Virus record (IMG/VR): IMGVR_UViG_3300027905_000009
Coordinates: 1-44,214 of that record
Origin: a virus
DNA length: 44,214 nucleotides
Direction: 5' to 3' (one strand)
In this document: positions 4,963 to 34,864 of the stretch, piece after piece
Numbering within the stretch: the first letter of the stretch is position 1
Layout: every line of letters starts with the position of its first letter
Notes under the pieces: model-generated
The model's input: only the letters and a program-made list of their open reading frames with translations
Database searches by the model: none
What the model was told of the DNA's origin: nothing
Program-made: the position numbers and the translations under genes

Positions 4963-5297
4963 CGCGTCCCTCCGTGAATGGCGAGATTCCTGACGGCGGA
5001 GAAACCGGACGTGCCGGCAGCCGAATAGTTCAGGACCGTCGCCAGCTTGCGATGCCGGGGAAGCAGCAGCTCGATCGCCACCACGGCCGTGACAACCCCG
5101 AACTTGACGCCGCATTGGCGAGCGCCGAACTGGCCGCGGCCGAGCAGCGGATTGGCTTCGATCCCGCCGCGCGAGCTGAATGCGTCGGCGGCGTTCGCGC
5201 CGGCCAGGACGCCGACCGAAATCCAGAACTCGTGGTCCGCCGCGCGCGCAGGAAGCGTCGCCATGAGCAGCAGGCAGCTCGCCACGAGGACTTTCAT
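4959..5297 (-). CDS. exported or membrane protein, 112 aa
   Basis: A signal peptide (MKVLVASCLLLMATLPARAA) is followed by WISVGVLAGANAADAFSS, GGIEANPLLG and a hydrophobic helix near GVVTAVVAIELLLP. The pattern of small hydrophobic helices with an 'EANP' turn resembles small integral membrane proteins of the DUF5658 type, common in Acidobacteriota. The function is unknown. It overlaps both neighbours by four bases (ATGA), so it is co-translated with the exported block. Confidence 0.6.
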   Translation of the reverse strand: MKVLVASCLLLMATLPARAADHEFWISVGVLAGANAADAFSSRGGIEANPLLGRGQFGARQCGVKFGVVTAVVAIELLLPRHRKLATVLNYSAAGTSGFSAVRNLAIHGGTR

Positions 5298-5659
5298 TTC
5301 TCGTCTCCATTCAGCTTTTTGAGATCGGGCTTAATTTCGACCGGTGGCGGCGGGATGCTCCCATCTTCGCCGGGTTTACAGTCTCCCTTTTGGATCTGGC
5401 CCACGGAGAAGCCGGCCTCTTTGCAATACCGCTCGATCAGAGCGTTATGCTCCTTCAGCGCGGCAGCGCCCTCGGCCTGAGCGCGCTGTAGCGTCTCCTG
5501 CGCATGCTGGGCCGTCTCCTTGGCATGCCCGATCTGCTCGCTGGCGAGCTTGACCTGAAGCTGGAGGCGCTTCAAACGCTCCCGGTCTTCGGCCGGTATG
5601 GTGACGTTCCCGGCGCTAAGCGTCACGGCGCAAAGGGCTAGAATCGAGACCCGTCTCAT
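5294..5659 (-). CDS. exported coiled-coil protein, 121 aa
   Basis: The first 17 residues form a signal peptide (ILALCAVTLSAG). Residues about 22-75 form a strong heptad-repeat coiled coil (AEDRERLKRLQLQVKLASEQ onward), followed by a short Cys-containing region and a proline-rich tail. There is no lipobox. An exported coiled coil with a Pro-rich tail recalls spanin or Rz-type lysis proteins, but the evidence is compositional only. It sits between two exported genes with four-base overlaps. Confidence 0.55.
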   Translation of the reverse strand: MRRVSILALCAVTLSAGNVTIPAEDRERLKRLQLQVKLASEQIGHAKETAQHAQETLQRAQAEGAAALKEHNALIERYCKEAGFSVGQIQKGDCKPGEDGSIPPPPVEIKPDLKKLNGDEK

Positions 5660-6024
5660 CGGCCCTCTTTCCTGGCCCGTGCCGCGGACGCACTCGGCGG
5701 GACGGGTACTACGCTATCCACGATCGATGCGTCCACCTTTAAGATCAGCTCCGTGTCGACGCCGGTCCCTGGTCCGGCCAGGATCGCGGATCGTGGTTGG
5801 CCCTGTTGATCGTGGTAAGCCACCGCCAGATTGTAGAAGTCCGCAGCAGTGGGGCTCGGATTATAGATCCAGACGGCCACGTGCACCGGAATCGTCGAGG
5901 TCGGCGGATCCGCGATGGTTCGCAGCAATGAAGTGCTGGACCAGTTCACCCACGAAATGATGAGCTCCGGGTTTTGCGCCATCGCCAACATCGCGACAAA
6001 AACAGTCAAAAGTAATCGCTTCAT
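5656..6024 (-). CDS. small exported protein, 122 aa
   Basis: AGAGGT lies just before ATG 6024. The protein has a clear signal peptide (MKRLLLTVFVAMLAMAQ), then a beta-rich mature region with IISWVNWSSTSLLRTI and VHVAVWIYNPSP, and an Ala/Arg-rich end. Acidobacteriota secreted proteins often look like this. I recognise no family. It is the first gene of a block of five overlapping exported genes behind the fibre gene. Confidence 0.6.
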   Translation of the reverse strand: MKRLLLTVFVAMLAMAQNPELIISWVNWSSTSLLRTIADPPTSTIPVHVAVWIYNPSPTAADFYNLAVAYHDQQGQPRSAILAGPGTGVDTELILKVDASIVDSVVPVPPSASAARARKEGR

Positions 6025-6037
6025 TTGGACCTCTTTT

Positions 6038-6091
6038 CAGTAGATTCTCTGAGCTTCGATGTGAAAGTCATCTTCCCGGACCCGCGCAGCC
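6038..6091 (-). pseudogene. decayed copy of the fibre C-terminal end
   Basis: This stretch matches the last 18 or so codons of the adjacent fibre gene (6100-6156): both read GGCTG-GC-GG-CC-GG, then TGACTTTCACAT, then AGAATCTACT and a stop. The copy lacks two bases before TGACTTT, which destroys the frame, and differs at several other positions. It starts eight bases after the fibre stop and has no start codon, so it is a remnant, not a gene. Confidence 0.75.
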
Positions 6092-6099
6092 ATTGGTTG

Positions 6100-17662: not shown

Positions 17663-18112
17663 TTAGGCCGCGCGCTGGAATTTCACCACCGGCTGCCGGC
17701 GCAGCTCGGCGAGAACCGCCGCGTTGAGCGCATTGCGGTCCTTGGGCGAAACTCCGAACTGCTGCTCGCGCAGATTGTTGATGTGCGCGATCGCGTCGGC
17801 GCGCGCGTCGACGAAGCCGATGACCACGCGGTTCTCGCTGGCCGTCAGCACTTTCATGGACCGCATGGTGCGCCCGCTCCACTTCCAGTCGCGGATGGGC
17901 TGCAATCCCCGCGCCGACTTGTAATCCGGATAGCCGCGGTGGCCTCTGCGTCCGGGCTTCAACGGCCGCGCGGCTTCATCGTCCGCGTTTTCGCCCCGCG
18001 CGATCCGCGCCGCGATGCTGTCGAGCACCGCCTGGCCGATGCGCTGCATCTGATCGGCGGAGAACGGGCCGAGGACGAATCGGGCCTTCTGGATCTTGGT
18101 TTGGAACGCCAT
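17663..18112 (-). CDS. putative tail completion/virion morphogenesis protein
   Basis: The 149-residue protein has a helical N terminus (ADQMQRIGQAVLDSIAARI), a central WKWSGRTMRSMKVLTASENR and VVIGFVD segment, and NNLREQQFGVSPKDRNAL near the end. The order (helix, 'L/W-x-S-G-x-T' then a VxIGF strand, then a residue block facing the interface) is like phage virion morphogenesis/tail completion proteins (P2 gpS, Mu gpG type). It lies 25 bases before the tape measure gene. The assignment is by pattern only. Confidence 0.5.
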   Translation of the reverse strand: MAFQTKIQKARFVLGPFSADQMQRIGQAVLDSIAARIARGENADDEAARPLKPGRRGHRGYPDYKSARGLQPIRDWKWSGRTMRSMKVLTASENRVVIGFVDARADAIAHINNLREQQFGVSPKDRNALNAAVLAELRRQPVVKFQRAA

Positions 18113-18118
18113 GGTTTC

Positions 18119-18451
18119 CTACTTCTGCGTCTCGGGCTTCGCCGGCGCGGCCGCCGGAGGCGCAGGCTGGGCGGGCTGGAAGCATTCGGGCCAGCCGGTC
18201 TGTTCATTCTCGCGGTAAAACTGGACGCCGCCGCAGAATTCGTAGGCCTTGTTCATGAAGAAATTGAGCAGGAGCTGGGCCTGGGAGACATTGCGCTGCT
18301 GCGCCAGGATCTGCTTCACCTGGTCGTCGCTCAGCTGGCGCTTAGGCGTCGAAGCCGCGGCCGGCGCGGGCTTCTGCTCCTGCGCCCTGACCGGCGGCGC
18401 CAGGAGCGCAGCCGCCAGCAAGATCCACGGAATGTATCTAGATATATTCAT
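18119..18451 (-). CDS. small exported protein, 110 aa
   Basis: A signal peptide (ISRYIPWILLAAALLAPPVR, cut near RAQ) precedes a helical central segment (RQLSDDQVKQILAQQRNVSQ) with two cysteines further on and an Ala/Pro-rich C terminus. The family is unknown. It is the last gene of the 10-kb exported fibre cassette, six bases from the morphogenesis-like gene, eight bases after the repeat-protein stop. Confidence 0.6.
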   Translation of the reverse strand: MNISRYIPWILLAAALLAPPVRAQEQKPAPAAASTPKRQLSDDQVKQILAQQRNVSQAQLLLNFFMNKAYEFCGGVQFYRENEQTGWPECFQPAQPAPPAAAPAKPETQK

Positions 18452-18458
18452 TTTCCCT

Positions 18459-20390
18459 TTAGGGCTGTCCCACGATGATGCTGACCGGAGTAAGCAGCCC
18501 TCCGGAGAGCTTCGCGGCGGCCACCAGCGTAATCAGCGGCAGATTTTCGGCCACCATCGCGACATGCGCGACCGGCAGCCGCGTCCCCGCGTCGCGCAGC
18601 GAGAAGAATTCGGACGCCGTGCCGAGATGCGCGCCCAGGCCGGCGGCCGCCGCTGTCAGATTGGAAGCATCCGAAGCCGCTCCGAAATGCGCGCCGAAGC
18701 CCGAGGCGGTCGCGACCAGGCTCGAAACATCCGAGGCCGACACGTGCAGATTCGCCAGGCGCGAGGTAGCATCCAGGGCGCTGAGCTCCTCGCTGACCAG
18801 CACGGCGGTGTTATGGGTCCGCGAGGCCGCATCCACAATCGAGAACGCTTCTGAAGTCTTAGCCTGGTGAACTCCCAGGCCGGCCGGCGCATCGCGCAGC
18901 GTCAGCGGATCGGAGCCGTTACCGAAATGGGCGCCCAGGCCGGAGGCCGCCGTTGTCAGATTCGAAGCGTCCGAAGCCGCGCCGAAATGCGCGCCCAGGC
19001 CGGAGGCCGCCGTTGTCAGATTCGAAGCGTCCGAAGCCGCGCCGAAATGCGCACCCAGGCCGGCGGCCGCCGTTCTCAGATTCGAAGCGTCGGAAGCCGC
19101 GCTGAAATGCGCGCCGAAGCCCGAGGCCGTATCCTTCGCGAGCAAAGCTTCCGCCGGCGCCGCGAAGTGCGAGGCTAGCCCGGTGGCGAAGTCAGACGTC
19201 GGCAAGCCCTCCGTCCCTGTCCCTGTGTATCCGTTGCCGGACGGACTGGGCGGAAACGTAATCCACAATTCGAGCAGATTGTCAGTGGCGGACCGGAATA
19301 GTCCGCGGGAGATCGCGTCCATCGCCAGCGCTTTATCCGACGGACTGCGAATCAGGGCCTGCCGGATGGCATTGGCGTCGAACATCGACAGCGGTTCGTT
19401 CGCGGAGGCGACAAAGCCGTGGATCTTCGCGTTCAGATCCACACTCGAAAGCCTATCGGCCGCCGTGCCGAAGTGCGCGCCCACGCCCGCGGACGCATCC
19501 AGCGCCGGCGCACTGTCCGTCACCGAGAGATGCAAGGCCGCTTGCCGGGATGTCGCGGCCGACAGCGGCAGCAATTCGCTTACGCTCGTAAAGCTGCTAT
19601 GGGTGCGCCCTGCCAGGTCCAGGATCGAGACCACATCGGCCGCCGCGCCGAAGTGCGTGCCGAGCCCCGCGCCGGCATCGAGCATGGCGACCGCGTCGGT
19701 CGTGGCGACGGTATATAACGATCCTCCCGAACAGCCGCCGCCGGAGTTGCAGACGCTCAAGCCGGCCAGAGCCGGGTTAGTCGGTGTAGACCACGTATGC
19801 GTCACGCTCGCCGCGCCGGTGGTCGCATAATCGGCGCCCGCTCCGTAATTTCCTCCCGAATTGCTGCTGATCTTGGTCTGCGTCGTGCTGGTGGCCGAGC
19901 CCGGCCCGGAATTAAGGCACGTGGTCGATTTGTCGTTGGCGTTGCTGGTGATCGTGATCGCGCTCGTCGTGCTGGTGTTATACGAACCGCTGCGGACGGG
20001 ATTGGTCTGGTCCACGCCGCTGTACTCCTCGAGCAAGGAGTAAATGTCGTTCACGGTGCCCGACGTGGTGACCGCAAAAACATGGGTCCCGGTCGGCGGG
20101 TTCACCAAGTAAAACAGCTGAGCGTAAGCCTCCGAGGTGCCGTTTAGAGCCGCGGACCCGGCGGAAGTCATCGCCACGGAGTTGTACGTGACCGAGGAAA
20201 CCGATGCTCCCGAAGCCTTGTCGAATGCGACGCAGGCGATCGCTACGGTGTTCGTGCCGGAGTTGATGATCGCGTTATTGCTGGTCGGCGATGCGGTGTC
20301 GTTGTGCATCGTGTTGCCGGTCGCAACGAACGCCACCTGCGCTCCGGCAGGGAGGCCTAGCAGCAGAAAGAGGAACGCTTTACGCGGCAT
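18459..20390 (-). CDS. exported repeat protein, beta-sandwich head and 20-residue repeats
   Basis: The 643-residue product has a signal peptide (AFLFLLLGLPAGAQ). Residues about 20-190 form a beta-sandwich domain common in phage tail and Acidobacteriota surface proteins (INSGTNTVAIACVAFDKASG, EEYSGVDQTNPVR). From about 220 on it is made of degenerate repeats of about 20 residues, best seen as ASGLGAHFGAASDASNLTTA, including neighbouring copies identical at the DNA level. Start and stop overlap: ATG 20390 lies 11 bases inside the upstream gene. The repeats look like an extended stalk. Virion fibre or cell-surface protein are both possible. Confidence 0.7.
   Translation of the reverse strand: MPRKAFLFLLLGLPAGAQVAFVATGNTMHNDTASPTSNNAIINSGTNTVAIACVAFDKASGASVSSVTYNSVAMTSAGSAALNGTSEAYAQLFYLVNPPTGTHVFAVTTSGTVNDIYSLLEEYSGVDQTNPVRSGSYNTSTTSAITITSNANDKSTTCLNSGPGSATSTTQTKISSNSGGNYGAGADYATTGAASVTHTWSTPTNPALAGLSVCNSGGGCSGGSLYTVATTDAVAMLDAGAGLGTHFGAAADVVSILDLAGRTHSSFTSVSELLPLSAATSRQAALHLSVTDSAPALDASAGVGAHFGTAADRLSSVDLNAKIHGFVASANEPLSMFDANAIRQALIRSPSDKALAMDAISRGLFRSATDNLLELWITFPPSPSGNGYTGTGTEGLPTSDFATGLASHFAAPAEALLAKDTASGFGAHFSAASDASNLRTAAAGLGAHFGAASDASNLTTAASGLGAHFGAASDASNLTTAASGLGAHFGNGSDPLTLRDAPAGLGVHQAKTSEAFSIVDAASRTHNTAVLVSEELSALDATSRLANLHVSASDVSSLVATASGFGAHFGAASDASNLTAAAAGLGAHLGTASEFFSLRDAGTRLPVAHVAMVAENLPLITLVAAAKLSGGLLTPVSIIVGQP
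18931..19110 (-). repeat. three tandem 60-bp coding repeats
   Basis: Units at 18931-18990 and 18991-19050 are identical over 60 bases; the unit at 19051-19110 differs at five. A further separated copy at 18631-18690 differs at about five or six positions. Each unit encodes 20 residues, so changes in copy number keep the frame. Identity this high points to recent duplication or ongoing gene conversion. Confidence 0.95.
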
Positions 20391-23300
20391 CTTTCACCGA
20401 TTTCGAGACCGTCGGCGCGCCGCCGGAATTGTTGTAGCAGCCCGCCGCATCGAAGCCCTTGATGTGCGGATAGGAGAATGTGCCGGACGAGATTCCAGGA
20501 TTCGAAGCGGCCGCATAGCTGAACGTGGTGGACGTCACGGCGGTCACGAGCACCGTGCCGCTGGTCGGAATGCCGGAGACTTGATCGCCCACTAGCAAGG
20601 TATGCGTACCGACGGTCAGCTCCTCGGTTCCGGCCGAGAAGCTTCCCGCGGTGATCGTGTAGGTCGTGGAATAAGCCGGGTCGTCCGCCGCGTTGGCAAA
20701 GCAGACTCCGGCAGGAATCGTCGACGCGTGCCCGGTTGGGTCGCTGGCCGTCACGTCCGGGCCGATAGCGGGCCAGGGGATCGTCACCCACGGGTTGGTC
20801 CACCAGGCGGGCTGGCTGTTCACGATAAAGCTCGCGGGCAGCGTGTGGTTGGCCGGGACCGTCTGGTCCGACGGAATCTCCGATGAATTCCAGCGAGTCC
20901 CCGTCGCGGCGTCGTTGTTGCCCCACAGCAGCAGCGTGGTTTTCACCGCCGAGTCGGAAGCGACGCCCCCGGAGTTGCTATCCAGGAATCCGCTCCAGCC
21001 GGTCACCAGGTTGCTGGCGTTAGGCGTTCCGTTGGAGGCCGATTCGTCGTCCCAGTAAACCGTATTCTGGCCGCCCGTCCCGATGACGTTGCCGATCGTG
21101 CTCCATTTCCTGGCGTAGCTGTTCAGGTTGATCGGGACGGTGTTATTCGACTTCTGGACCAGGCTCGCGTCCTCGTTGCCCTTGATCCGGTTGCGGAACG
21201 CCGTCAACAATCCGCCGACCCCGTGGACATCGTCGCCGGTGAACTGGGTGGCATAGTTGCCTTCGGCCAGGTTCATATAAGTAAAAGCGTCGTGGCCCAG
21301 GAAGTTGTCGCCGCCCAGGATCGTCGCGGGGTCGGCGTAGTTATCGAAGTTGTAATTGTAGGCCGTGACGGTCCCTTCGTCCGCCCCACGGATGAAGCCG
21401 GTCCCCATGTGCTGGAAGATCGAATTGATGACCAGGTTGTCGGCGGCCTCGTAATCCTCTCCGCCGTACTGGCACGAATCCGGTCCGGTGTTGACGAAAT
21501 AGCTGTTCTGGACGGTGACGTGGTTCGAGAACTGGTTCCAGAAGTGGTTGCGGACGCTGTTGGACGCGCCCGCCGCTACCTGCGGACCGATCGAGCGGAC
21601 ATTGCTGATCCAGGTCCCGTAGGCGTTGTAGTTATTCACGCCGCTGAACGGATTGCCGCACGAGTACCCGGTGACGGCGGTGAAATCCAGGGTGATGTTC
21701 TGGATGCCCGAGTTCGTGATCTGGGTGCCCGTCCACCAGGCGCCGGGAGACTTGCCGCGAATGGCCCAGTTGGCCGCATAGAGCGGGGGCGTGACCGTCA
21801 CCAGGTAGGGTCCGGAGCCGGAGATCGAAACGACTTTGACGAACTGCTGCTGGCTGGAATTGACTCCTCCGATGGTCCGGCCCGCACTGCCGTTGCCCGA
21901 GCCGCCGTTCGTAGCGAACGTGCCGATGAGGTCCCCGGAGAAAGGATCGGTCCCGCTCGGCAGAGTGGTGTCGTTCGGCTGATCCAGGATCAGGATCTGT
22001 CCGGCGGCCAAGGCCACGCCGGTCGACTGGTGGTCGATCAGGATCTGCGTCGATCCCTGGGCGAAGCCCTCGACCCAATTGGCGCACTGCTGCGTCGTTC
22101 CGCAAGGAGGCGTGATGATCGCCGTCCCGTCTCCAATGTTCGCCCCGGCGAAGCCGACGGAGGCTGTTCCGCCGGCACAATCGGAACCATCGGAAAACAC
22201 TATCTTTGTTGTTTTCGGACTGGCTGCGCGGAGTTCAGTATTCGACCCCACGCAAATTCCATTAGCCAGATAGAACGTCCCAGTCCCCAGCATCACGTAA
22301 GTGCTGGAGGCGCATCCCGTGTAGCCCGTCCCGGTGTGATTTAGGGCATTGATGATCGTATTCGGCGAGGCGGGGGAGCCGCTCGTCCCGTAAGCCGAGA
22401 TAGTCGCTCCGCATTGGCTCCAGCTTGCCGATGGGAGCACCAGGGCGGTCTTGTCTTCGCCCGGCACGCCCGCCTTGGTCCAGTCGATCGCGCGCCCCGA
22501 GTTCAGGATCGGCGACCAATTCCCCGTGATGGCCGGCTGAGGCGGGAGCAGCGGCCACGGACAGACCGCCGGGCCGACGCAGAAGAACCATTTGTCATAG
22601 AAGTTATGGTTCGTCGTGAAGGTGCCGACGTTTCCGCCCGAACGCCCGAGCTGAACAAGCGCGGGAGGCTGCGTTCCGGACTCGGCCGCGACCCCGTTGA
22701 TCTCCGCTACGCCGTTCACGGCGGACAATACCGGACGCAGGGCTGCGTCGTACAGCCGGTATCCGTCCTGGCCGCTGCCTCCGGGCGTGTTGTAGCCGGC
22801 GAGGAAGTACCAATTCCCCACGCCGTTAGCCCAATTACAGCCGGTCGCCGAGCTCGACTTGAGCGGGAAGTAATCGGTGTGATTGGTCATCCCGCAGCAT
22901 TCGATGTTCAGGCCGATCACGCCGGACGCCTCGGCCGGCTCCAGCGAAAGGTTCGTGAAATTCATGCTCCCGGCCTGGTCGAGGGTGGCGACGTCGTACC
23001 AGGAGCTCGTGTTGCCGGTGCTATCGGGAATGTCCGTGCAGAACCAGCCGCCGAAGCTGGCCATGCGGTTCTGGCGCAGGAATTGCGGCCAGTTGATCTC
23101 TACGGTCTGCTGGTCGCTGGTGGTGGAGATGGTGTTGTAGCGGAGCTGGGTGCCGCCCAGATCGTCCGTATACGTCGCCCCCGCCGTGTTCCCGTTTCCG
23201 CCATAGCAGAAGCGGATCGGATTCGGGTTCACGTGGTGGCCAGCCGTATCCCAGACCAGGTTGTCGGTGCCGTTGGGCGTCGCGACGCTCATCCCGTCGC

Positions 23301-24120
23301 CCGAGCCGGTCGAGATCCATGGCGCTCCATAGATCGAGGCCTGAAGCGTGGAGTTGGTGACCTGGTTCCCCGAGGTGCCTCCCGAGAAGTCGATCATCGT
23401 CAACTGGCTGCAGGGCAGCGTGACGCCGATGCCGAAGCTGATGGCCAGCACCGTCTCGTGGGCCGGGGTCGCGGTCGCGGTCCAAGTGGGAGCCGCCGCG
23501 GAGGTCGTGTTCGCGTTGACCGCGACGCCCATGCCGCCGGCGAACACCGCGTTGGCGCTGTAGGGGCTGCTGACAGCGGTCACGGATGTGCTGGCGATGG
23601 CCGCTTCGATCACGAGGCACTGCGTACAGCTCAGGGTCAGCGCCAGCCCACTGAAGGTCGTCGCGGACACGGCGCGGGGCGTGCTGTCGAGCGGCTCCAG
23701 GTACAGCGTCCCGGCCGGCGGAGTGACGACTACCAGAACGACCGAGCCGCCGCCGTCGGTGGTCCCGCCGTCGTTATTTGCGAAAGTGACGGTGACCGTG
23801 GCGTTGGAAATGGCGGTGGCCCCAATCACATAACAGGCATCGAGCCAATTGGTGGAGACGAACTCCGCGCCGTTGATCAGCCCGCTGGTAAGGCATGTGC
23901 CGCCAGCGCTGATGCTGGCGATGGTTGTGCCGACCGTGGTGCCCCCCGCTGTGCCGGTACCCGCCACGGCCACGACCAGATCTCCGGAATTGATCGTTAC
24001 GTTGGGAATAGCGCAGGTAAGGCCAGCGGCGCAGGAACCGTTCGAGAAGAAATGAACGGTGCCGAACGTCTGCCCGAAGCAGGCAGAAGCCAGCAGGAGG
24101 AACGAAAGTAGCCGTGGCAT
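20380..24120 (-). CDS. exported beta-helix tailspike-like protein
   Basis: The 1,246-residue protein begins with a signal peptide (LLSFLLLASACFGQT). Residues about 20-230 form a beta-sandwich like that of the adjacent repeat protein. A central lectin/jelly-roll-like part follows. Residues about 640-1080 show the short strand-turn repeats of a right-handed parallel beta-helix, with Asn-rich ladders (NSGIQNITLDFTAVTG, NSYFVNTGPDSCQYG, NLVINSIFQHMG), as in pectate-lyase-like tailspikes that bind or cut polysaccharides. The C terminus adds a small beta domain (EELTVGTHTLLVGDQVSG). Catalytic residues cannot be fixed by eye. Confidence 0.7.
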   Translation of the reverse strand: MPRLLSFLLLASACFGQTFGTVHFFSNGSCAAGLTCAIPNVTINSGDLVVAVAGTGTAGGTTVGTTIASISAGGTCLTSGLINGAEFVSTNWLDACYVIGATAISNATVTVTFANNDGGTTDGGGSVVLVVVTPPAGTLYLEPLDSTPRAVSATTFSGLALTLSCTQCLVIEAAIASTSVTAVSSPYSANAVFAGGMGVAVNANTTSAAAPTWTATATPAHETVLAISFGIGVTLPCSQLTMIDFSGGTSGNQVTNSTLQASIYGAPWISTGSGDGMSVATPNGTDNLVWDTAGHHVNPNPIRFCYGGNGNTAGATYTDDLGGTQLRYNTISTTSDQQTVEINWPQFLRQNRMASFGGWFCTDIPDSTGNTSSWYDVATLDQAGSMNFTNLSLEPAEASGVIGLNIECCGMTNHTDYFPLKSSSATGCNWANGVGNWYFLAGYNTPGGSGQDGYRLYDAALRPVLSAVNGVAEINGVAAESGTQPPALVQLGRSGGNVGTFTTNHNFYDKWFFCVGPAVCPWPLLPPQPAITGNWSPILNSGRAIDWTKAGVPGEDKTALVLPSASWSQCGATISAYGTSGSPASPNTIINALNHTGTGYTGCASSTYVMLGTGTFYLANGICVGSNTELRAASPKTTKIVFSDGSDCAGGTASVGFAGANIGDGTAIITPPCGTTQQCANWVEGFAQGSTQILIDHQSTGVALAAGQILILDQPNDTTLPSGTDPFSGDLIGTFATNGGSGNGSAGRTIGGVNSSQQQFVKVVSISGSGPYLVTVTPPLYAANWAIRGKSPGAWWTGTQITNSGIQNITLDFTAVTGYSCGNPFSGVNNYNAYGTWISNVRSIGPQVAAGASNSVRNHFWNQFSNHVTVQNSYFVNTGPDSCQYGGEDYEAADNLVINSIFQHMGTGFIRGADEGTVTAYNYNFDNYADPATILGGDNFLGHDAFTYMNLAEGNYATQFTGDDVHGVGGLLTAFRNRIKGNEDASLVQKSNNTVPINLNSYARKWSTIGNVIGTGGQNTVYWDDESASNGTPNASNLVTGWSGFLDSNSGGVASDSAVKTTLLLWGNNDAATGTRWNSSEIPSDQTVPANHTLPASFIVNSQPAWWTNPWVTIPWPAIGPDVTASDPTGHASTIPAGVCFANAADDPAYSTTYTITAGSFSAGTEELTVGTHTLLVGDQVSGIPTSGTVLVTAVTSTTFSYAAASNPGISSGTFSYPHIKGFDAAGCYNNSGGAPTVSKSVKDAA

Positions 24121-24136
24121 CGATTGTCGACAATCG

Positions 24137-25240
24137 TTAGAAGTAGACCGTCTCCGTCAGCTGGAACGTGTCTCCGTTATTCAGGGAGACCGGGGTGAAC
24201 GTGCCTTCAAAGCACATGGTTCCGGACGAGGAGGCCGTCAGGACGCCGAACGCCTGCGCGGATTGGCTGGCGGTGGCCGTCCAGGTGTGCACCAGCGTGA
24301 ATTTGCCGAAATTGGTCAGATTGCTCCCGGGAATCGTGACCGACAAGAGCGTGTTGCTCTCGTCGTCCTGTTCGCAGGCCAGCGCGGCGGAGCAGTCGGG
24401 GTTGCCCTGGACCTGATCGGTCACCGTGCCGGAGGGCGCGGTGCTGGAGGTCGTCCGGTAGACCTGATAGGTGCTTGCGCCGTTTTGGCCGGTCCATGTG
24501 ATGGTGTTGAAGTTGGTGGCGCTCAGGGTCGCGTTGGCGGTGGTGATGTTATTGCTCGCCGCCGAGGGCGTGGTACAGATGCCCTGATTGCAGGCTGCGA
24601 CCCAATACCAGTAGGAGGTCGATCCAGCGGTGCCGAGCACGGAGGCGGTGGGCGCGGCGGGAACGGAAAGCGTGGTCGAGGCATCGGTGTATGTCGCCTG
24701 CGCGCGAGCCAGACCGTTGGTGGTGATCTCGCCGGAGAGCGTGGTGTCCGCCTCGGCCGGAGTGAACGCGGTGTTGGTGAGCGCAATATTATTGCACTGG
24801 TTGTTCACCGCCGGCGTGCTGGTGTCGCCCATCAACTGGGACTGCCAGGTTGTCCCGGCGCTGGTCCGCATGTTGTGCGTCTCGCCGGAGAAGAACAGTT
24901 CCCCGCACTCCTCCGTCTTCAGGCACCCGGGCACGGGATGCCTGGCTTCGACGTGAACCGGATGCGTCAACGCCCAGAGCGCTTCGGATTGCTCCAGACC
25001 CGTTGAAGCCGCCACCGGCGCCGTGGCTCCCTTGGCCGGCCGCTTGAAATTCCACCATTTGCGCCAGGGCGTGATTTTCACCGCCATCGGCCGCCCCGGA
25101 GCCGGCTGAATCATCAGCGGATGCGCCGCCCGGGTAACTACGACCGAGGCCTGATCGTGCGCCCCGGACTTGTCGGAGCCCTGCGCGAACAGGCACGCGG
25201 CAGCTGCCGCAAACGTAAGTATTCTTACAATCGGTTTCAT
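24137..25240 (-). CDS. exported fibre-type virion protein with internal FN3-like insert
   Basis: After a signal peptide (ILTFAAAAACLFAQ), residues 136-188 (LMGDTSTPAVNNQCNNIALT, FTPAEADTTLSGEITTNG) and 297-367 (TIPGSNLTNFGKFTLVHTWT, TMCFEGTFTP) match two halves of a single domain seen in many phage minor structural proteins. Between them, residues about 189-290 read as an FN3-like beta domain (STSYWYWVAACNQG, ITWTGQNGASTYQVYRT). The N-terminal 110 residues include a basic KWWNFKRPAKG stretch. So it is a virion-type domain that is interrupted and carries an export signal. Confidence 0.65.
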   Translation of the reverse strand: MKPIVRILTFAAAAACLFAQGSDKSGAHDQASVVVTRAAHPLMIQPAPGRPMAVKITPWRKWWNFKRPAKGATAPVAASTGLEQSEALWALTHPVHVEARHPVPGCLKTEECGELFFSGETHNMRTSAGTTWQSQLMGDTSTPAVNNQCNNIALTNTAFTPAEADTTLSGEITTNGLARAQATYTDASTTLSVPAAPTASVLGTAGSTSYWYWVAACNQGICTTPSAASNNITTANATLSATNFNTITWTGQNGASTYQVYRTTSSTAPSGTVTDQVQGNPDCSAALACEQDDESNTLLSVTIPGSNLTNFGKFTLVHTWTATASQSAQAFGVLTASSSGTMCFEGTFTPVSLNNGDTFQLTETVYF

Positions 25241-25273
25241 GTCTCTCCTTGAATTCAGTGCGAACCGACCGGC

Positions 25274-28200
25274 TCACTGCGGCCGCATCGCCGTCCACTG
25301 CAACGTCAGCGCTCCCGGCGTCACCGAAGAGGCCAGCTGGTTGCAGACGTTGATGTTGATGGTGTTGGTGGTGATGTAATGCGAGATCTCCAGGCCGCCG
25401 CTGCCCGGCACGTAGCCGGCGATGCCGAAGATGTTGGTGGTCGGCATCAGGTAGACCACGTCCTTGGTGGGATCCAGTCCGGTCACCGTGATCGTGGTCG
25501 GCGTGGCGCAATTCGGCGCGGCGCCGATGCTGGACGTGGCCATGGCCACCTGCCCCGATCCGAGCAGCAGGCCCAGCGTCGACGCGTTCCCTCCGGCGTT
25601 GGCGATGTTGACGTTCTGGTTCGCCGTCACGTTGACCGGATTGAACTGCGTCACGAATCCCGTGGCGTTCCGCATCTGGATGCCGTCGAAGCCCACGCCG
25701 AACTGCTGCACGCTCAGGTTGCCGTTGCCGTTGCAGGGGCTATTCGTCATCGCGGCCAGGCACTGCGCGTACAGCCATTGGTGGGTCCCGGCGAGCGTGG
25801 CGTTGCTATCCGGCTCCGAATCCCAGAACGAATACATGGGGTGCTGAGCCGAGCCGCCCCATACCGAGGCGATCATGCCGACGTTCTGCGATTTGACGTT
25901 CGTCCCGCTCGTCGCGGCGGCAGTGGGCGTCAGCCAGAAGCCGTAATTGCTGTTCCCGTAGGCGTTGTAGCCCAGCATCGCCAGGGGATTCTCGGTTCCG
26001 CCGCCGGTCTCGAGATCCAGCTCAAACGTCCCGCCGTAGAGGTTTCCGTAGGTGCCGAAGGAGACCTGGTGAAAAACCAATTCGTCGGAATTCGAGCCGT
26101 TCTTGATGCCCTTTAGGCCGAAATAGGCGTCGCGCGAATTGGTGTAGTTCCAGATCTGCAAACCGCTGGCGTCGAGCATCGCGCCTTGCGTGTACCCATC
26201 CCCGCCGACTCTATCGAGCGCGGAAAAGCAGCCGGCCGTCGTCTCGGCGCCGCCATTGCCGAAACCGCAGGCCTTGAACAGCCCGTTGCTGTCCGTGCCA
26301 ATGCTTCCGCCGGTGTTTTGCCAGATCCACGATCCGCTGGTCGACGGCAGCAGTCCAGCTCCCAATAAGAGCTTGGTGGAGGGAAACTGCAGCAGGTAAT
26401 TGAACGTCGGGTTGGAGCCGCCTGCATTTCCGCCGTCCGCCAGGAAGGCATTGAAGGCCGGCGCGGCCATCGACCCGTTATTTCCGGCCATCAGGTTCTG
26501 GACCTGGAAAATGTTGCCCTGCGGTTGTCCGCCGTTATTGGCCACATTCATGAACGCCCGATTCAGCGTGCCCGGCGTGTAGCTGTTCAGGAAATAGTTG
26601 AAGCCGGTGTTGTCGGGATACGGAGAAACAGCCAACTCCACCGTGTCGCCGTTCGACCATGTCGACGTGTTCGGCGTCAGCCAGACGGTGCTGCCGGTAA
26701 TCGCCAACGTCCGGCCGCACGGATAGACTGCGTAAGTGCTCCCGGTATACGTTGGGCCGTGATAGGAGCCGGTTCCCGGGAGGTCGAAACTGAACCAGCC
26801 CATGCTGGTGTTGCTGTTGACGCCGCCTCCAAAGCCGCCGATCTCCCAATAGGAGCCCAGCGCCGCCGTTCCGGATCCGAACGGCGAATATGTCTGATCC
26901 TCCGCGGCCGCGCGGCCGCAGCCGGGGCTGTTGGCTTCGCCTCCGACCATACCCGTCGTCCAGGTGGTCCCGTGGCCCACGACCGTCGTCGCATTGTTGG
27001 CCCGGTCCAGCGTGCCGGTGGTGTAGGATGCGCCGCTGAGGTCCACAAGCACGCGGTCCTGCCCGAACGCATACACGCTCGTGAGCGGAAGACCCAGGCT
27101 CGGCCGTACCGTAGCCCCGCTGGAATGGTTATTTGTCCAGACCGCAGTGATCGAACCGAAAGTGATCCCGGTCAGCACGAAGTCCTCGTAGTTGTAATAC
27201 CCGGTAGGCCCGTTCCAATCCGCCGTGAGGTGATCGCCGACCATGCAGCCGGTGGTATTCGGTGTCACTGTTACGGTCAGGCTGACCGGAGGCGAGTTCG
27301 CCGGAATCACGACCGCCTGAGACAAGGTCATGTTCGGACAGCCCGACCGTACCGGCGCGCCGCTGACCGTGGTCTTGACGATGAAGCCCTGCTGCTGCAG
27401 GCGGCTGACCACGCTGAATCCGCGCCCCTCATCGCCGGCCACGCTCGCGCCGGCGTAGGTGAGCGTCGTGCTCTCTCTGGCTACATCCCCCATCCCGTAT
27501 TTGGTGAGCGTGTAGTTGTGCATGATCGCCTGGCCGGAGCCGATGACGCTCATGCCTTCATTAGTCACGGACTGGGTGATCTTGGCGTTCGTCCCGCCGC
27601 CGTATTCGCTGTTTCCCCAGCCGACGTTCACGTTGATGTCCTGGCAGTACTGCGCCGTGAAACCCACGTTCAAAGTGGTGTCGGTGCTCGCGTTGAACGT
27701 GCACGCGAAATCCTGCCCGGAATGCAGGTTCGGACTGTTAAGAGCGTTCGGATTCGTGAGGGAATAGCCGAATCCGCCGCCGCCGGCGTTGTCGGTGAAC
27801 GTCGTGCGGTAGCCGCCCATGTTGAGCGCCTGATTCGCCAGGGGATTCTGCAAAGCGGACCAGGGCGGCGTGCCGCTCGAAGGCGTGCACCATCCGGTAA
27901 CGCCCGCGAGGTTGCACAGGACCTGTCCGTTCGTGGATCCCGTCACCGAAATCTGGCGCGGCGCGAAGGAGAGAGTCGGGCTTCCCGGATAATTGACGGT
28001 GACTTCTTTGATCGTGCAGAAGCTGGAGGAAGCGCACTGGCTGGAGGGGAGGGTCGGAACCGACCAGTAGGTGGTGATGGACTGGCTACCCACGGTAAGC
28101 ATCACCCGATAGGTCAGGCCGCTGGACGTCGCATGATCCGTCGGGACGAGCGGGATGTTGACCACTCCGGCGACCACCTGGTAGATCTCGCCGATCAGCG

Positions 28201-28384
28201 GACTTTGGGCGACGCTGGCGCCGTTGTAGGTGAATTCGGCCCAGGCGACGGCGATGGTGCCGTTCACGAGCGCTCCGTTGGCGCCGGGCGCGAGCGTGTC
28301 GGAGATGGTAGTGTACGGCGGAGTCTGCGCGAGCGCGCACACTGCGAGCGCCGACGCCAGCGCCAACTTGAAGAGGGTCCTCAC
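25274..28384 (-). CDS. exported tail fibre/spike protein, 1,036 aa
   Basis: A signal peptide (LALASALAVCALAQT) is followed by a fibre-type N-terminal domain (LAPGANGALVNGTIAVAWAE, GLTYRVMLTVGSQSI, TTYWSVP, then VTVNYPG), widespread in phage tail fibres. The remaining 850 residues are beta-rich, with Asn/Gly-rich strand-turn segments typical of beta-helix or beta-prism spikes, and a C-terminal beta domain (TTITVTGLDPTKDVVYLMPT). The ATG overlaps the stop of the frameshifted T extension (ATGA), so translation is coupled to the chaperones. It is the first gene of the exported cassette. Confidence 0.75.
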   Translation of the reverse strand: MRTLFKLALASALAVCALAQTPPYTTISDTLAPGANGALVNGTIAVAWAEFTYNGASVAQSPLIGEIYQVVAGVVNIPLVPTDHATSSGLTYRVMLTVGSQSITTYWSVPTLPSSQCASSSFCTIKEVTVNYPGSPTLSFAPRQISVTGSTNGQVLCNLAGVTGWCTPSSGTPPWSALQNPLANQALNMGGYRTTFTDNAGGGGFGYSLTNPNALNSPNLHSGQDFACTFNASTDTTLNVGFTAQYCQDINVNVGWGNSEYGGGTNAKITQSVTNEGMSVIGSGQAIMHNYTLTKYGMGDVARESTTLTYAGASVAGDEGRGFSVVSRLQQQGFIVKTTVSGAPVRSGCPNMTLSQAVVIPANSPPVSLTVTVTPNTTGCMVGDHLTADWNGPTGYYNYEDFVLTGITFGSITAVWTNNHSSGATVRPSLGLPLTSVYAFGQDRVLVDLSGASYTTGTLDRANNATTVVGHGTTWTTGMVGGEANSPGCGRAAAEDQTYSPFGSGTAALGSYWEIGGFGGGVNSNTSMGWFSFDLPGTGSYHGPTYTGSTYAVYPCGRTLAITGSTVWLTPNTSTWSNGDTVELAVSPYPDNTGFNYFLNSYTPGTLNRAFMNVANNGGQPQGNIFQVQNLMAGNNGSMAAPAFNAFLADGGNAGGSNPTFNYLLQFPSTKLLLGAGLLPSTSGSWIWQNTGGSIGTDSNGLFKACGFGNGGAETTAGCFSALDRVGGDGYTQGAMLDASGLQIWNYTNSRDAYFGLKGIKNGSNSDELVFHQVSFGTYGNLYGGTFELDLETGGGTENPLAMLGYNAYGNSNYGFWLTPTAAATSGTNVKSQNVGMIASVWGGSAQHPMYSFWDSEPDSNATLAGTHQWLYAQCLAAMTNSPCNGNGNLSVQQFGVGFDGIQMRNATGFVTQFNPVNVTANQNVNIANAGGNASTLGLLLGSGQVAMATSSIGAAPNCATPTTITVTGLDPTKDVVYLMPTTNIFGIAGYVPGSGGLEISHYITTNTININVCNQLASSVTPGALTLQWTAMRPQ

Positions 28385-28875
28385 GTGTTTCCATCCGGGC
28401 GGACTGCCGGCGGAGCGGGCTTTGCGGCGATCCGGTCCCTATCGTTTTCCTGAGCTTCCCGGACGCAGCGATCGCGCTCCTCTTTCAGGGCCCGGAGCCC
28501 GTTCACTTCCTCCGCGCTGACGTCGCTCCAGGGGATCGAAAAGCGTTCGATCAGGAACTCCAGCTCGAGCAGCCGGCCCAGCAGCTGGCCCGCGGCCGAG
28601 TGCGCCCGGGCGTGCTCCAAATCGTCCAACTGGCAGCGCGGGCAGCGGTTGACGGTGGCCGGTAACACGCCGCAGGAAGGGCACATTCCCGGACGCGTTA
28701 CGTCGGCGGCCTTCCAGGTCAGTCCACAGCGCCCGCAGGCGACTTCTTCCGCCGCGGGGCAGGCCTCCGCGCCATCGTCGCCGCCGTGGCACAGCCGTCC
28801 CGGCCGGAGCGAGCAATAGATCAGGAACCGCAGCGTCGGCCGCTCCGGCCACTCGTCCGGCTCTAGGAGTTTGGG
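28381..28875 (-). CDS. tail assembly chaperone T extension (made by -1 frameshift)
   Basis: In the -1 frame relative to the upstream chaperone, an open stretch runs without a start codon from the slippery site to the stop, giving about 162 further residues. Composition is coding-like throughout. It holds a zinc-ribbon-like part: ACPAAEEVACGRCG, then MCPSCG and NRCPRC, followed by a helical acidic-basic C terminus. The stand-alone ORF from ATG 28686 covers only its C-terminal 101 residues and would split the Cys pairs. The combined G-T product would have about 361 residues, like lambda gpGT, which recruits tail tube subunits to the tape measure. Confidence 0.75.
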   Translation of the reverse strand, partial: PKLLEPDEWPERPTLRFLIYCSLRPGRLCHGGDDGAEACPAAEEVACGRCGLTWKAADVTRPGMCPSCGVLPATVNRCPRCQLDDLEHARAHSAAGQLLGRLLELEFLIERFSIPWSDVSAEEVNGLRALKEERDRCVREAQENDRDRIAAKPAPPAVRPDGNT

Positions 28876-29465
28876 TCGAACGCCGGATCGAGCTCTTCGA
28901 TGGCGTGCACCAGCTCGATCGCGATCGCGAACTTGTGATGCGCCGGGACCTCGGTCCCGTCCGCGTATCCGGAGGAGCTCTGAACCGCCGCGTCGTACAG
29001 ATCCATGGTCGATTGCGTTCGGTAGCGCAGTTCTTCCTGGTTGTGCGGCAACTCGCGCGATTTGACCACGGTGCGCTTATAGTCGGCGAGCTGCCGGGCC
29101 GTGGGAATGCCCAGGACGTGGACGCTCTCTCCGAAAGGCGTCTTGAGCGTCACCGTATAGCCGTCGCTCGATCGCTCGCAGTCCACGACTTCCGAGGAAG
29201 TCAGCTTCTGGATGGCGTTCCGCGCCTCGAACTCGTCGAAATCGTCTCCCGAGAGCCGCAGCTGGGCGAACAGATCCAGGTCCGCTTTGGCGTTGGGGAG
29301 CGTTTCGGTCTGGGACTGGCGCCGGCCGATCATGCGCCGGATGGTCTTCTGCGCGTCCATGTGGGCCGCGATTTCATCCGACTTGGGCAGCCGAAGGAAG
29401 GCTTCCTTCTTGGGATTCGCTACCGTGAAACGGAAGCCGCCTTCGGGCATTTCGCCATAAAGCAT
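28863..29465 (-). CDS. tail assembly chaperone (gpG-like)
   Basis: The 200-residue protein directly follows the major tail protein, the fixed place of the tail chaperone G. It is acidic and helical with FTVANPKKEAFLRLPKSDEI near the N terminus and KFAIAIELVHAIEELDPAFD near the end. It has no export signal. The -1 slippery heptamer lies two codons before its stop, so a fraction of ribosomes continue into the T extension. Identity rests on position, size and frameshift, since G-type chaperones share little sequence. Confidence 0.75.
   Translation of the reverse strand: MLYGEMPEGGFRFTVANPKKEAFLRLPKSDEIAAHMDAQKTIRRMIGRRQSQTETLPNAKADLDLFAQLRLSGDDFDEFEARNAIQKLTSSEVVDCERSSDGYTVTLKTPFGESVHVLGIPTARQLADYKRTVVKSRELPHNQEELRYRTQSTMDLYDAAVQSSSGYADGTEVPAHHKFAIAIELVHAIEELDPAFDPNS
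28869..28875 (-). promoter_or_regulatory. -1 ribosomal frameshift slippery site CCCAAAC
   Basis: On the minus strand the gpG-like frame reads GAC CCA AAC TCC TAG; CCCAAAC is a canonical X-XXY-YYZ heptamer in the correct phase. After a -1 slip the ribosome enters an open frame for 162 codons. A GC-rich hairpin GGCCG-GAG-CGGCC lies 18 bases downstream (28838-28850) and could help, although its spacing is longer than usual. Confidence 0.8.
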
Positions 29466-29511: not shown

Positions 29512-30519
29512 CTATTGCCCGATGCCGGTGATGGCGCAATTCGCGGTCACAGTCACGACGCCGTTGCTGGACTGGTACTGCGGGATGATGGTCACCGTGA
29601 CGTCCACGATCCCGTCCGCTTCTCCGTTCACCACGACGCCGTAGGAAATCTGCTGCCAGGTCCAGGTGACCGAATCGTTGGCGTCGTACTGGACGGTGAC
29701 CACGGCCGTTCCGGTGGTCTGGGCGACCAGCTTGGTGTATTCGTCGGAGGCTTGCAGCAGCCGCGCCCGGAAGGAGAACGTCGGGACGCGTGCCCCGATT
29801 TCCAGCCGGCCGCGGATGGCGGCGCCGCTTTGGATGCCCGAGCCGGGGAAGAAGCCCGTATTCAACAGCAGGTTGTTTTTCCAGCCCAGGCTGACGCTGA
29901 GGATCTTCTTGGTGCCGACGTAATCCACGCCGTTGATGGTGATCGCGGCCGACCCGGAGAGCATGTGGTGCTCGGTGGTCAGCGCCGGCGCCGAGACGCC
30001 CGAGGGGCTCGTGAGTTTTCCGGATCCCACCCACTTGACGGTGCATTTGTGGGTCGCGCGGCCGGCGCCGTAGGTGATCTCATTCATCACCTCCTCTATC
30101 GCGCAGCCGATGTAGGCGTTGTCGATGGAATTGCCGCCGCCTTCGGCCATCTGCTCCACGACGGTCAGATAAGGCAGCTCGATGGTCGTGCCGGGATTGA
30201 TGGGCGTGAGCGTGTAGGCGTAAGGCCCCGAACCGGTCTGCGCGACGTTGCCCAGCGCGTAGGCCCAGGCCCAGACCACGAATTCCGTGGTGCCGTACTT
30301 TTCCAGGTCCCCGCTGGTTTCAAAGGAGACGGGATAGACGGCGGTCGCGAACTCGTGACCTTTTCCGATTTCCGGCGCGTCGTTCTCGGTGGTGAACATC
30401 GGGCTGGCGATCTGCGCGTTCAGCTGCTTGAAGGTCAGGAAGCTGGACGCGATCGTGGTAATGCTGGTCTGCTTCGCCTTGCCCAAGGCGAGGACCTTTT
30501 GTTGAATTCTCGACGCCAC
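29512..30519 (-). CDS. major tail (tube) protein
   Basis: The GTG-started protein of 335 residues is placed between tail connectors and tail chaperones. It is beta-rich with typical tail-tube elements: an N-terminal arm (RIQQKVLALGKAKQTSI), a central core (CAIEEVMNEITYGAGRATHK) and a C-terminal Ig-like stretch (VVVNGEADGIVDVTVTIIPQ). GGAGGA lies about nine bases before the GTG. It should be the most abundant tail protein. No signal peptide is present. Confidence 0.8.
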   Translation of the reverse strand: MASRIQQKVLALGKAKQTSITTIASSFLTFKQLNAQIASPMFTTENDAPEIGKGHEFATAVYPVSFETSGDLEKYGTTEFVVWAWAYALGNVAQTGSGPYAYTLTPINPGTTIELPYLTVVEQMAEGGGNSIDNAYIGCAIEEVMNEITYGAGRATHKCTVKWVGSGKLTSPSGVSAPALTTEHHMLSGSAAITINGVDYVGTKKILSVSLGWKNNLLLNTGFFPGSGIQSGAAIRGRLEIGARVPTFSFRARLLQASDEYTKLVAQTTGTAVVTVQYDANDSVTWTWQQISYGVVVNGEADGIVDVTVTIIPQYQSSNGVVTVTANCAITGIGQ

Positions 30520-32362: not shown

Positions 32363-33814
32363 TTACGCCCCCGCGTTTTGCTGCCAGCCGCGGTAATCGA
32401 TCGCGGCGGCCGCGAAGTCCAAACGGGCCTTGATCTCGACGCCGTCGACGTCGAAGCCCTGGCGGGTTTCGATGTAGACGCCTTCCTGGCCTTCCAGGTA
32501 GCAGTACTCCAGACCGTCGATCTGGGCCGGATCGGCCACCGCGTACCAGGCCGTGCCGCTCGCGGCATCCAGACGGGGTTCGATGACCGGGATCATGCTG
32601 CGCACCCAGCTCGGGACCACCTTGGTCAGATCCGAAGACGCGATATCGATCGGGTAGACGGCTTGCAGCAGGTAGGTTTCGAGAGCCGCCGGGCCGCAGA
32701 GGAATCGCGGGACCAGATTCAAGGGGGTCCCTTGAGGACCGCTCTGCAGCCGGAGCTGCTTGCGGGCGGCGGCCAGCGCGCCAAGCGCGTTGGTGATGAT
32801 GCTGCTGCTGGATCCGGTCAGGACGTTGTTGTGGGCGGAATTGAACATCGCCACGTTATCCACCTGCATCACCTGGTTGCCGGTGATGACGGCCCAAACG
32901 GTGTCGGACTCGAGGCGCGCGGCGGCCACGCCCAGGATCGCCGGGACGCGGGTGAACGCCTGCAGGTCGTCGTTGATGATGACCTTGCGGGTGATGGCCA
33001 CTATCTCGCCGTAGGTGGCGAGCGAATAGTTCTGGTTCGAATCGGTGAGATTCGCCCGGTGGTATTCGCCCTTCTGGTTCAGCTTCTGCAACGCCGAGGC
33101 GTCGCTCAACTGCACGCGATTGATGGGCTTGAAGTCGGCCGCCGTGACCTGCTTGGCGAGCGGCTGGAAGCTGCGCGGCCAGGCCTCATAGGCTTGCCGC
33201 AGCGTCTTGTTGGCAACGTTGGCCAGAATGCTGGGGAAGTCGGTGGTCGATTCCGCGCCGCCGGAGAAGGATTCCGACTGGATGCGGCCCTCGGAGAGGG
33301 CGCGCTGGGCGAGTTCCATTTTGCTCATGCCGCGGGGATTGATGCCGCGCAGTTGGAGCGATTCGCGAGCCATCTCGAGCAGCGAGAAGCCGCGGTAATT
33401 GCGCCCCTGCTCCTCCAGCCGCCGCTGATAGTCCGGTCCGCGCCCGTCCAGATATTCCCCGGTGGGCTCGCCGCTGGAGTTCAGCCTCTTGGCCATGCCG
33501 AATTTCGGGTCGTGCCGCAGGAGCAGGGCGGACTGCATCTGCGCCAGGCGGGTTTCGCCGGCTTCGCGGGTGATCACGGCCTCGCCGGTGATGCGGAAGT
33601 CTTCGCCCTTGGCGTCCTGCTCCCCTTTGACCGCCAGTTGCGTCATGATGCTCTTGCGGGCCTCGTCGGCGGAGATCCCGTCGCCGATGAGTTTGGCGAC
33701 GAAGGTCTCGTCCAGGGCCTTGAAAGGAGCCGCCATGGCGCGAATGTCACTTACGCGCTGCCGCTCCGCCTTAACTGCCTCGTCGCGCGCTGCGGCGAGC
33801 TGCTGTTCTTCCAT
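32363..33814 (-). CDS. nested scaffold-major capsid protein from internal start
   Basis: Met351 of the fusion (MEEQQLAAARDEAV) is preceded by GGAGGAG with six bases between, the best ribosome binding site in the neighbourhood. It lies exactly at the boundary between the protease part and the helical scaffold-like part. A 483-residue product would result, comparable to the way lambda makes Nu3 scaffold from inside gene C. This would supply excess capsid subunits over protease. Confidence 0.5.
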   Translation of the reverse strand: MEEQQLAAARDEAVKAERQRVSDIRAMAAPFKALDETFVAKLIGDGISADEARKSIMTQLAVKGEQDAKGEDFRITGEAVITREAGETRLAQMQSALLLRHDPKFGMAKRLNSSGEPTGEYLDGRGPDYQRRLEEQGRNYRGFSLLEMARESLQLRGINPRGMSKMELAQRALSEGRIQSESFSGGAESTTDFPSILANVANKTLRQAYEAWPRSFQPLAKQVTAADFKPINRVQLSDASALQKLNQKGEYHRANLTDSNQNYSLATYGEIVAITRKVIINDDLQAFTRVPAILGVAAARLESDTVWAVITGNQVMQVDNVAMFNSAHNNVLTGSSSSIITNALGALAAARKQLRLQSGPQGTPLNLVPRFLCGPAALETYLLQAVYPIDIASSDLTKVVPSWVRSMIPVIEPRLDAASGTAWYAVADPAQIDGLEYCYLEGQEGVYIETRQGFDVDGVEIKARLDFAAAAIDYRGWQQNAGA

Positions 33815-34864
33815 GTTGTGCTCCTCCACTGATTTGGAAGCGCTTGTTGCGCTCCCGATTGTTCCGCCGCTGGCGGACAAAAACGCCGTGCTGAAATCGG
33901 CCGGCACCGGGCACGGGGAGATTTCGAACGGCTCCCAATCGGTAGCCGCGAACATCCCCATTTCATTCGGATTGGAATACTGCGGCGCCCCTTCCGGCAG
34001 CGGATTGCCCGCGCTCAGCTTCTCCCGGTCGTAGATCCAGGCGCCGAAACTCAGATTCTGGACGATGCCGGCGGAAACCTTCCGGAACAACTGGGCGGCG
34101 TCCGGATCGCCCAGATCGAACTGCAGCGTCGCCGTGCCCTTGGTCCCTTGGGCCTGCGCCTTGCGGACCACGCCGACCTGAGCTTTCGTCCCGGTCTTGC
34201 CCGCCATGGCGGACTTGAAATCGTCCCCGGTGAAATGCGTATCGAAGACCGGAGCGCCCGCGTTCAGGCGGTCCAGCCTGGCGCCGGCCATGTCGAGCCA
34301 CAGCATGCAGGGATCGCCCGTGTCCGGATCGCGCCGGGAGACCCATTGGCCGCCATACCAGACGCAATCGATGGTTCCGGCCTTCAGATCGACCGTGCTG
34401 GGCACGAATTCGGCGATACTGCCGCCGTCGACTTTGCCGCCGAAGTAGTCCTCGGGGCCGATCTCGCCCGCGGCCTTGAGGTCGGGAGCCTTCATTCCCG
34501 CGTCCTTGTAGTGCGCCGCGAGGTGCGCGTGCACGCCTTTGCGGTCCGCATCCGGGACGCTCAGTCCGCCGCCGTTCAGCCGGCCCATGGCAGAGGCGAC
34601 GCCCTTCATGTTGGCCGCGCCCACGGTTCCGTCCGCGGACACGTTGTGGTGCGGCAGCTTGTAGGCGTCCTTGGTTTCCGGATCCTTGGACGGGTCCACC
34701 CAGGCGTGCATGGCGCGCAGCGCTTCCTTGGTGGGCTTGTCGCCCAGCCGCTTCAGGTTCGCGCCGGCGTCCCAGGCGCCGTCCTTGTCGACGGCCGTAT
34801 GCTTCACGCCGATCGCTCCGAGCTCTTCCGGCGCCGTTCGGCGCCCCGTTTTGAGATCGCTCAT
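32363..34864 (-). CDS. prohead protease-scaffold-major capsid fusion protein
   Basis: The 833-residue protein combines a domain with AYKLPHHNVSADG and SVPDADRKGVHAHLAAHYKD (residues 50-125) often found in phage prohead proteins, a protease region (about 145-330) with likely His210 (FDTHF) and Ser264 (RKVSAGIV), a charged helical scaffold-like part (350-440), and a major capsid part (440-833) with SDASALQKLNQKGEYHRANL, DSNQNYSLATYGEIVAITRK and ITGNQVMQVDNVAMFNSAHN, as in Mu-like gpT capsid proteins. Such fusions are known. Cleavage should release the capsid protein. An internal start at 33814 could also make the scaffold-capsid part alone. Confidence 0.9.
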   Translation of the reverse strand: MSDLKTGRRTAPEELGAIGVKHTAVDKDGAWDAGANLKRLGDKPTKEALRAMHAWVDPSKDPETKDAYKLPHHNVSADGTVGAANMKGVASAMGRLNGGGLSVPDADRKGVHAHLAAHYKDAGMKAPDLKAAGEIGPEDYFGGKVDGGSIAEFVPSTVDLKAGTIDCVWYGGQWVSRRDPDTGDPCMLWLDMAGARLDRLNAGAPVFDTHFTGDDFKSAMAGKTGTKAQVGVVRKAQAQGTKGTATLQFDLGDPDAAQLFRKVSAGIVQNLSFGAWIYDREKLSAGNPLPEGAPQYSNPNEMGMFAATDWEPFEISPCPVPADFSTAFLSASGGTIGSATSASKSVEEHNMEEQQLAAARDEAVKAERQRVSDIRAMAAPFKALDETFVAKLIGDGISADEARKSIMTQLAVKGEQDAKGEDFRITGEAVITREAGETRLAQMQSALLLRHDPKFGMAKRLNSSGEPTGEYLDGRGPDYQRRLEEQGRNYRGFSLLEMARESLQLRGINPRGMSKMELAQRALSEGRIQSESFSGGAESTTDFPSILANVANKTLRQAYEAWPRSFQPLAKQVTAADFKPINRVQLSDASALQKLNQKGEYHRANLTDSNQNYSLATYGEIVAITRKVIINDDLQAFTRVPAILGVAAARLESDTVWAVITGNQVMQVDNVAMFNSAHNNVLTGSSSSIITNALGALAAARKQLRLQSGPQGTPLNLVPRFLCGPAALETYLLQAVYPIDIASSDLTKVVPSWVRSMIPVIEPRLDAASGTAWYAVADPAQIDGLEYCYLEGQEGVYIETRQGFDVDGVEIKARLDFAAAAIDYRGWQQNAGA
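33821..33827 (-). promoter_or_regulatory. internal Shine-Dalgarno GGAGGAG
   Basis: GGAGGAG on the minus strand, followed by CACAAC and ATG at 33814, inside the protease-capsid fusion gene and in frame with it. It encodes VEEH in the long protein. It decides the proposed internal start. Confidence 0.55.

Follow-up and report, generated by a model that had tools for sequence, protein, structure and literature searches.

We found that a stretch of DNA of 44,214 nucleotides from an uncultured soil-type phage (hereafter the window; IMG/VR record IMGVR_UViG_3300027905_000009) very probably encodes a lambda-type G/GT pair of tail assembly chaperones, in which a -1 slip at C-CCA-AAC would join G to a T part that looks like a metal-binding module with a nested zinc ribbon. 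Judged from sequence, it is a G/GT pair by gene order and expression logic, and the reading draws on the frame overlap, on a slip site that is conserved or replaced by an equivalent one, on selection in the -1 frame, on the absence of an alternative start, on the gene order and on invariant cysteines. We infer the slippage itself and its efficiency as follows. Most ribosomes would end at the G stop and release G (200 aa), while in a minority the P-site Pro tRNA (CCA) and the A-site Asn tRNA (AAC) would move back in tandem by one base, to CCC-AAA; these ribosomes would continue in the -1 frame to yield a G-T fusion of 361 aa with the junction peptide FDPN-LLEP. If the two proteins behave like their lambda counterparts, the tape-measure protein would be coated with G, and tail-tube subunits would be brought in by T. 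The T part would consist of an outer Cys4 site, a nested zinc ribbon and then a long helical C-terminus. The mechanism is the textbook G/GT frameshift and as such of a known kind; the new elements are the strict AAC shift site, a G without match to named families and the putative zinc-ribbon T part. With ordinary annotation, the T protein would be overlooked or given a start in the middle of a domain.

The features of the locus are collected in Table 1. The earlier note, made from the window's letters, had placed C-CCA-AAC two codons before the G stop and had described a -1 frame open for 162 codons without an early start. Coordinates and phase of the heptamer were confirmed at 28875..28869, where CCCAAAC is followed by TCC and then by TAG, the G stop. 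The -1 frame is open from the heptamer to a TGA at 28383..28381 on the minus strand, and the earliest ATG, GTG or TTG in it is ATG 28686. Base composition and codon usage follow the same course. The GC3 peak switches frame at the heptamer, from about 0.8 in the G frame before it to 0.80-0.92 in the -1 frame after it. The codon-usage comparison that the earlier note had suggested favored the -1 frame over the five others, with -0.06 bits per codon over 28687..28875 against -0.78 in the 0 frame, -0.54 in the +1 frame and values between -0.38 and -0.88 on the opposite strand.

Table 1. Features of the G/GT locus and its tail-gene neighborhood in the window. T residues are numbered from the CCC codon.
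Feature	Position	Strand	Basis
G, 200-aa tail assembly chaperone-like ORF (zero-frame product)	28863..29465	-	ORF, profile of 43 relatives, AlphaFold
T part, -1 frame, 162 residues after the predicted slip	28381..28869	-	open -1 frame, GC3, codon score, dN/dS, AlphaFold
C-CCA-AAC slippery heptamer, putative -1 shift site	28869..28875	-	sequence; 48/57 junctions
Candidate hairpin, possible stimulator (unproven)	28823..28864	-	CCGGA...UCCGG consensus in close relatives
Outer Cys4 set of T (C29, C39, C78, C81), enclosing the ribbon	28633..28791	-	alignment of relatives
Nested candidate zinc ribbon, C47-x2-C50 ... C65-x2-C68	28672..28737	-	alignment, weak Pfam matches, structure alignment
Putative major tail (tube) protein, 335 aa, just upstream of G	29512..30519	-	synteny; PHROG match of the L078 relative
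149-aa gene, directly after GT in relatives	17663..18112	-	61-68% identity to L027, L019, L038 and L017 genes
Tape-measure protein gene, 1123 aa	14266..17637	-	phrog_9483 (E 3.9e-9), phrog_2276 (E 5.5e-9)

We then scanned viral contigs with patterns and profiles of G, T and the upstream tail protein, which yielded relatives L001-L003 and L005-L118. Another candidate, L004, found in genome contigs, was a 54-residue match of 35% in a Clostridiales MAG and was rejected as probably due to chance. In profile searches of all ORFs, G and T were neighbors at most loci. After removal of duplicates, 57 distinct junctions from many samples were left, the window included. The second frame was the -1 frame in all of them (57/57). 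CCCAAAC was in phase in 48/57, in almost every case 10 nt ahead of the G stop, and six others carried a different XXXYYYZ heptamer (AAATTTT in L070, L074 and L076, GGGTTTT in L071, AAATTTC in L075 and GGGAAAC in L088), which brings the junctions with an in-phase XXXYYYZ heptamer to 54/57. In the remaining three (L066, L068 and L078), a TTTTT run leads into the G stop and there is no XXXYYYZ heptamer. At such junctions (L066 around 7638, L078 around 7930), a single-tRNA slip with the stop codon in the A site is possible. Overall, a -1 overlap at every junction and a slip site at the end of G support the claim of the earlier note that a G/GT pair is made here by programmed frameshifting. Homologues in which the two frames are separate and the second has a plausible start, named there as the contrary case, were found at none of the 57 junctions.

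The same survey bears on two other ways of explaining the overlap. With a single metagenomic window, a sequencing or assembly indel, or the decay of a gene, could be suspected of splitting one ORF. However, the same -1 overlap recurs in 57 distinct junctions from many samples, the frames are clean and the distance to the G stop varies; the nearest relative of the window on the G tree, L002, keeps the heptamer and has a G that is 14 codons longer. Since independent contigs share the overlap, we consider an artefact refuted and its residual probability negligible. Alternatively, transcriptional rather than ribosomal slippage might mix the frames, as the A4T5 or T5 runs at the junctions of distant relatives would allow. 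Against this, the longest homopolymer in CCCAAAC is three, which is generally too short for polymerase slippage, and 48 junctions share this heptamer. Polymerase slippage is thus extremely unlikely.

The window's heptamer is found in one copy on the coding strand of the whole 44 kb. In this genome alone it is nevertheless weak evidence, because 90 XXXYYYZ heptamers occur in the 44 kb in any frame, and one would fall in frame within the final ten codons with a chance of about 2%. Comparison with relatives takes it far beyond chance. All seven positions, wobble bases included, are 100% invariant among the 48 CCCAAAC sequences, and CCA, which makes up only 59 of the 752 Pro codons in G (8%), is nonetheless invariant in the heptamer. 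The 48 sites are not independent, as most relatives belong to one clade. A branch of the G tree separates the 45 complete rows with CCCAAAC and ribbon from the other states, and slip-site and ribbon states group with the minimum number of changes. C_CCA_AAG is very prone to shift in E. coli; there, AAC as second codon, termed mammalian-like, is a weaker shifter than AAG, and tRNA-Asn slips only in tandem with its neighbor tRNA (PMC5009743). Invariance over seven bases would fit an obligatory tandem slip. A large clade has fixed an AAC shift site that is poor in E. coli; because it is poor there, the tRNA-Asn of the hosts or a stimulator must make it work.

One candidate stimulator is a hairpin a few bases downstream of the heptamer. 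With the hairpin set by hand in close relatives, 84% of cells were paired, versus 33-52% when it was slid along the alignment. Covariation is weak, the copy in the window is imperfect (6/8 core pairs), and RNAalifold did not find a consensus hairpin in the junction alignment. Coding constraint could be the source of the pattern.

T could also be produced from a separate gene, by re-initiation or internal initiation past the G stop. ATG 28686 opens a 101-aa ORF in the window's ORF list, and some relatives have TTG or GTG near T codon 16-22. A start at ATG 28686, however, would cut the ribbon and lose conserved T residues. The earlier note had foreseen this cut, which holds, but had counted three CxxC pairs; the count is refined here to eight conserved cysteines, four outer and four nested, of which four would be dropped, the first ribbon CxxC among them. 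Moreover, start candidates vary in place among relatives, with no position common to their T parts. They are lacking or lie deep within conserved T (first start at codon 63 in the window, 74 in L060, 77 in L077, 83 in L065 and 124 in L066), and several relatives have none before codon 60. At nine junctions a TGA in the -1 frame stands directly 5' of CCC, and since it closes this frame just before the heptamer, T can be reached there only by slipping. Finally, the stretch before 28686 is selected in the -1 frame. As dN/dS over all pairs was saturated, we used independent close pairs instead, and over the 60 codons past the slip 16 such pairs gave 0.16 in the -1 frame, 1.68 in the 0 frame and 2.59 in the +1 frame, i.e. 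purifying selection in the -1 frame only. Taken with a heptamer that is kept or swapped for an equivalent, this makes a separate start of T very unlikely and argues for the frameshift.

Among the relatives, the cysteines of T fall into two sets. Three of the outer ones, C29, C39 and C81, are present in 56 of 57 rows, the remaining row being a contig end, and C78 is present in 54/57. The ribbon occurs in 47 of the 55 complete T parts and is replaced by a clean single gap in eight distant rows; wherever it exists, C47, C50, C65 and C68 are invariant. T therefore reads as a Cys4 domain with a ribbon that would have been gained or lost as a unit. The ribbons of L066 and L068 sit on the mostly ribbon-less side of the G tree, and either direction of change is conceivable. 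T parts with the outer Cys4 only and those with the nested ribbon form a natural series for asking what a T domain does, a question so far answered mainly from lambda.

Zinc binding by T we infer from several lines of similarity; its function is likewise a prediction, in which the ribbon would dock on the tail tube. The two CxxC knuckles (C47xxC50 and C65xxC68) lie on a predicted beta-ribbon with strands at 44-47, 53-55 and 73-75. Pfam matches of the ribbon are weak and, among members of the family, include HypA, DUF1451, Zn_ribbon_6 and double zinc ribbon, with a best E of 7.4e-5 among 43 members; the protein of the window stays below the curated zinc-ribbon cut-off in its sole match (13.8 vs 26 for PF23470). 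The AlphaFold models are confident, with a pLDDT of 92 for G and 90 for T; in the latter, strands surround the ribbon and are followed by long helices. Fold searches of both against BFVD and PDB returned nothing at E <0.001 or Z >5, and for T mainly the ribbon region aligned with solved zinc-ribbon structures (Z up to 4.8). The nearest of these include ribosomal and RNA-binding proteins, and metal identity is unreadable from sequence; the frameshift might thus be real and the cysteines bind no zinc, forming an iron-sulphur site or structural remnants, or the partner of the ribbon might be RNA or a host factor. This is a possibility of some weight but an unlikely one given the CxxC...CxxC pattern on its predicted beta-ribbon, the zinc-ribbon Pfam matches, weak as they are, and the invariance of the four ribbon cysteines. 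Compared with the HypA, DUF1451, Zn_ribbon_6 and PF0610 kinds of ribbon, the inner CxxC...CxxC is the same, whereas here the putative ribbon lies inside a second Cys4 site of a phage chaperone.

The G/GT frameshift is conserved and ordinary in long-tailed phages, where T binds the tail subunit (PMC5009743). As in the window, lambda has a tail protein, G, T in a -1 overlap and a tape measure, with a heptamer near the end of G, but its GGGAAAG lies 22 nt before the stop as opposed to 10 nt for CCCAAAC here, and its G and T have no detectable sequence relation to those described here. Similarly, HK97 gp13/gp14 is an annotated -1 fusion between major tail subunit and tape measure, but no XXXYYYZ heptamer was found within 60 nt of its G stop. 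The earlier note had called a CxxC-rich T domain unusual, and in a small sample this holds: past the slip, lambda T lacks Cys, as does the T extension of HK97, and the T part of TP901-1 has one, in contrast to the eight conserved here. The AAC second codon is shared with two other systems. Acinetobacter phage Loki gp12/gp13 has an A_AAA_AAC motif and likewise a small gene between chaperones and tape measure, but a different first half of the heptamer, and a zinc ribbon was not reported for gp13 (PMC5313236). The haloarchaeal virus HCTV-1 has G_GGA_AAC, with the "mammalian-like" AAC, but is an archaeal virus, and a Cys-rich T is not mentioned for it (PMC5009743). A literature search, with most subscription papers outside its reach, found no paper on a zinc-binding tail chaperone T domain.

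G and T had no match in Pfam chaperone families, PHROGs, PDB sequence profiles, lambda G/T or fold libraries, although they may yet be kin to known chaperones. Similarly, tblastn against INPHARED phages gave no match for G, T and tail protein of the window, for G, T and tail protein of L084 or for G of L088. The best-known programmed phage frameshift is thereby extended to a group without match among deposited phage records. We see an even chance that this group is an unnamed soil-type phage clade with a frameshift-made zinc-metalloprotein as tail chaperone, combining a zinc ribbon within a Cys4 T, an obligatory tandem slip at C-CCA-AAC and folds of G and T without kinship to known chaperones. 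If so, tail assembly in this clade would be zinc-dependent.

The position of G/GT right after the major tail protein, as in lambda, had been pointed out in the earlier note and was borne out by the gene order of relatives and by the tape-measure PHROGs. In the contigs found, relatives of the tail protein (40-63% identity) precede G/GT, and the distant homologue in L078 matches the PHROG tail family phrog_290 (E 1.7e-13). The order in relatives is tail protein, G/GT, small gene and tape measure, with L027, L019, L038 and L017 carrying counterparts of the 149-aa gene between GT and tape measure. The window keeps this order, with some 10 kb of additional genes lying between GT and the small gene with the tape measure. 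This block (18119-28384, minus strand) holds five genes of 1036, 367, 1246, 643 and 110 aa, and each product starts in a secreted-like manner with a hydrophobic stretch ending in AQ or FGQ. None of the relatives compared was seen to carry it at this location, and Pfam gave no match for any of the five products. The first part of the block is also present in a second contig, IMGVR_UViG_3300000567_000006, whose sequence is identical in the stretch that was compared.

The window also carries genes for terminase gpA, a lambda-family portal and capsid/protease as well as a head-closure match. Head maturation protease and major capsid protein are apparently fused in one 833-aa ORF (32363-34864, minus strand; phrog_4523, E 4e-165; Phage_capsid_4). 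Further additions were seen among the relatives. L025 has additional sequence with ORFs between the post-GT small gene and the tape measure (8859-9987), absent in L027 and L017. In L008, an antisense gene (551 aa; PF01048 nucleoside-phosphorylase domain, E 7.5e-12) lies between the tail protein gene and G (5203-6858, minus strand) and resembles a moron-like insertion.
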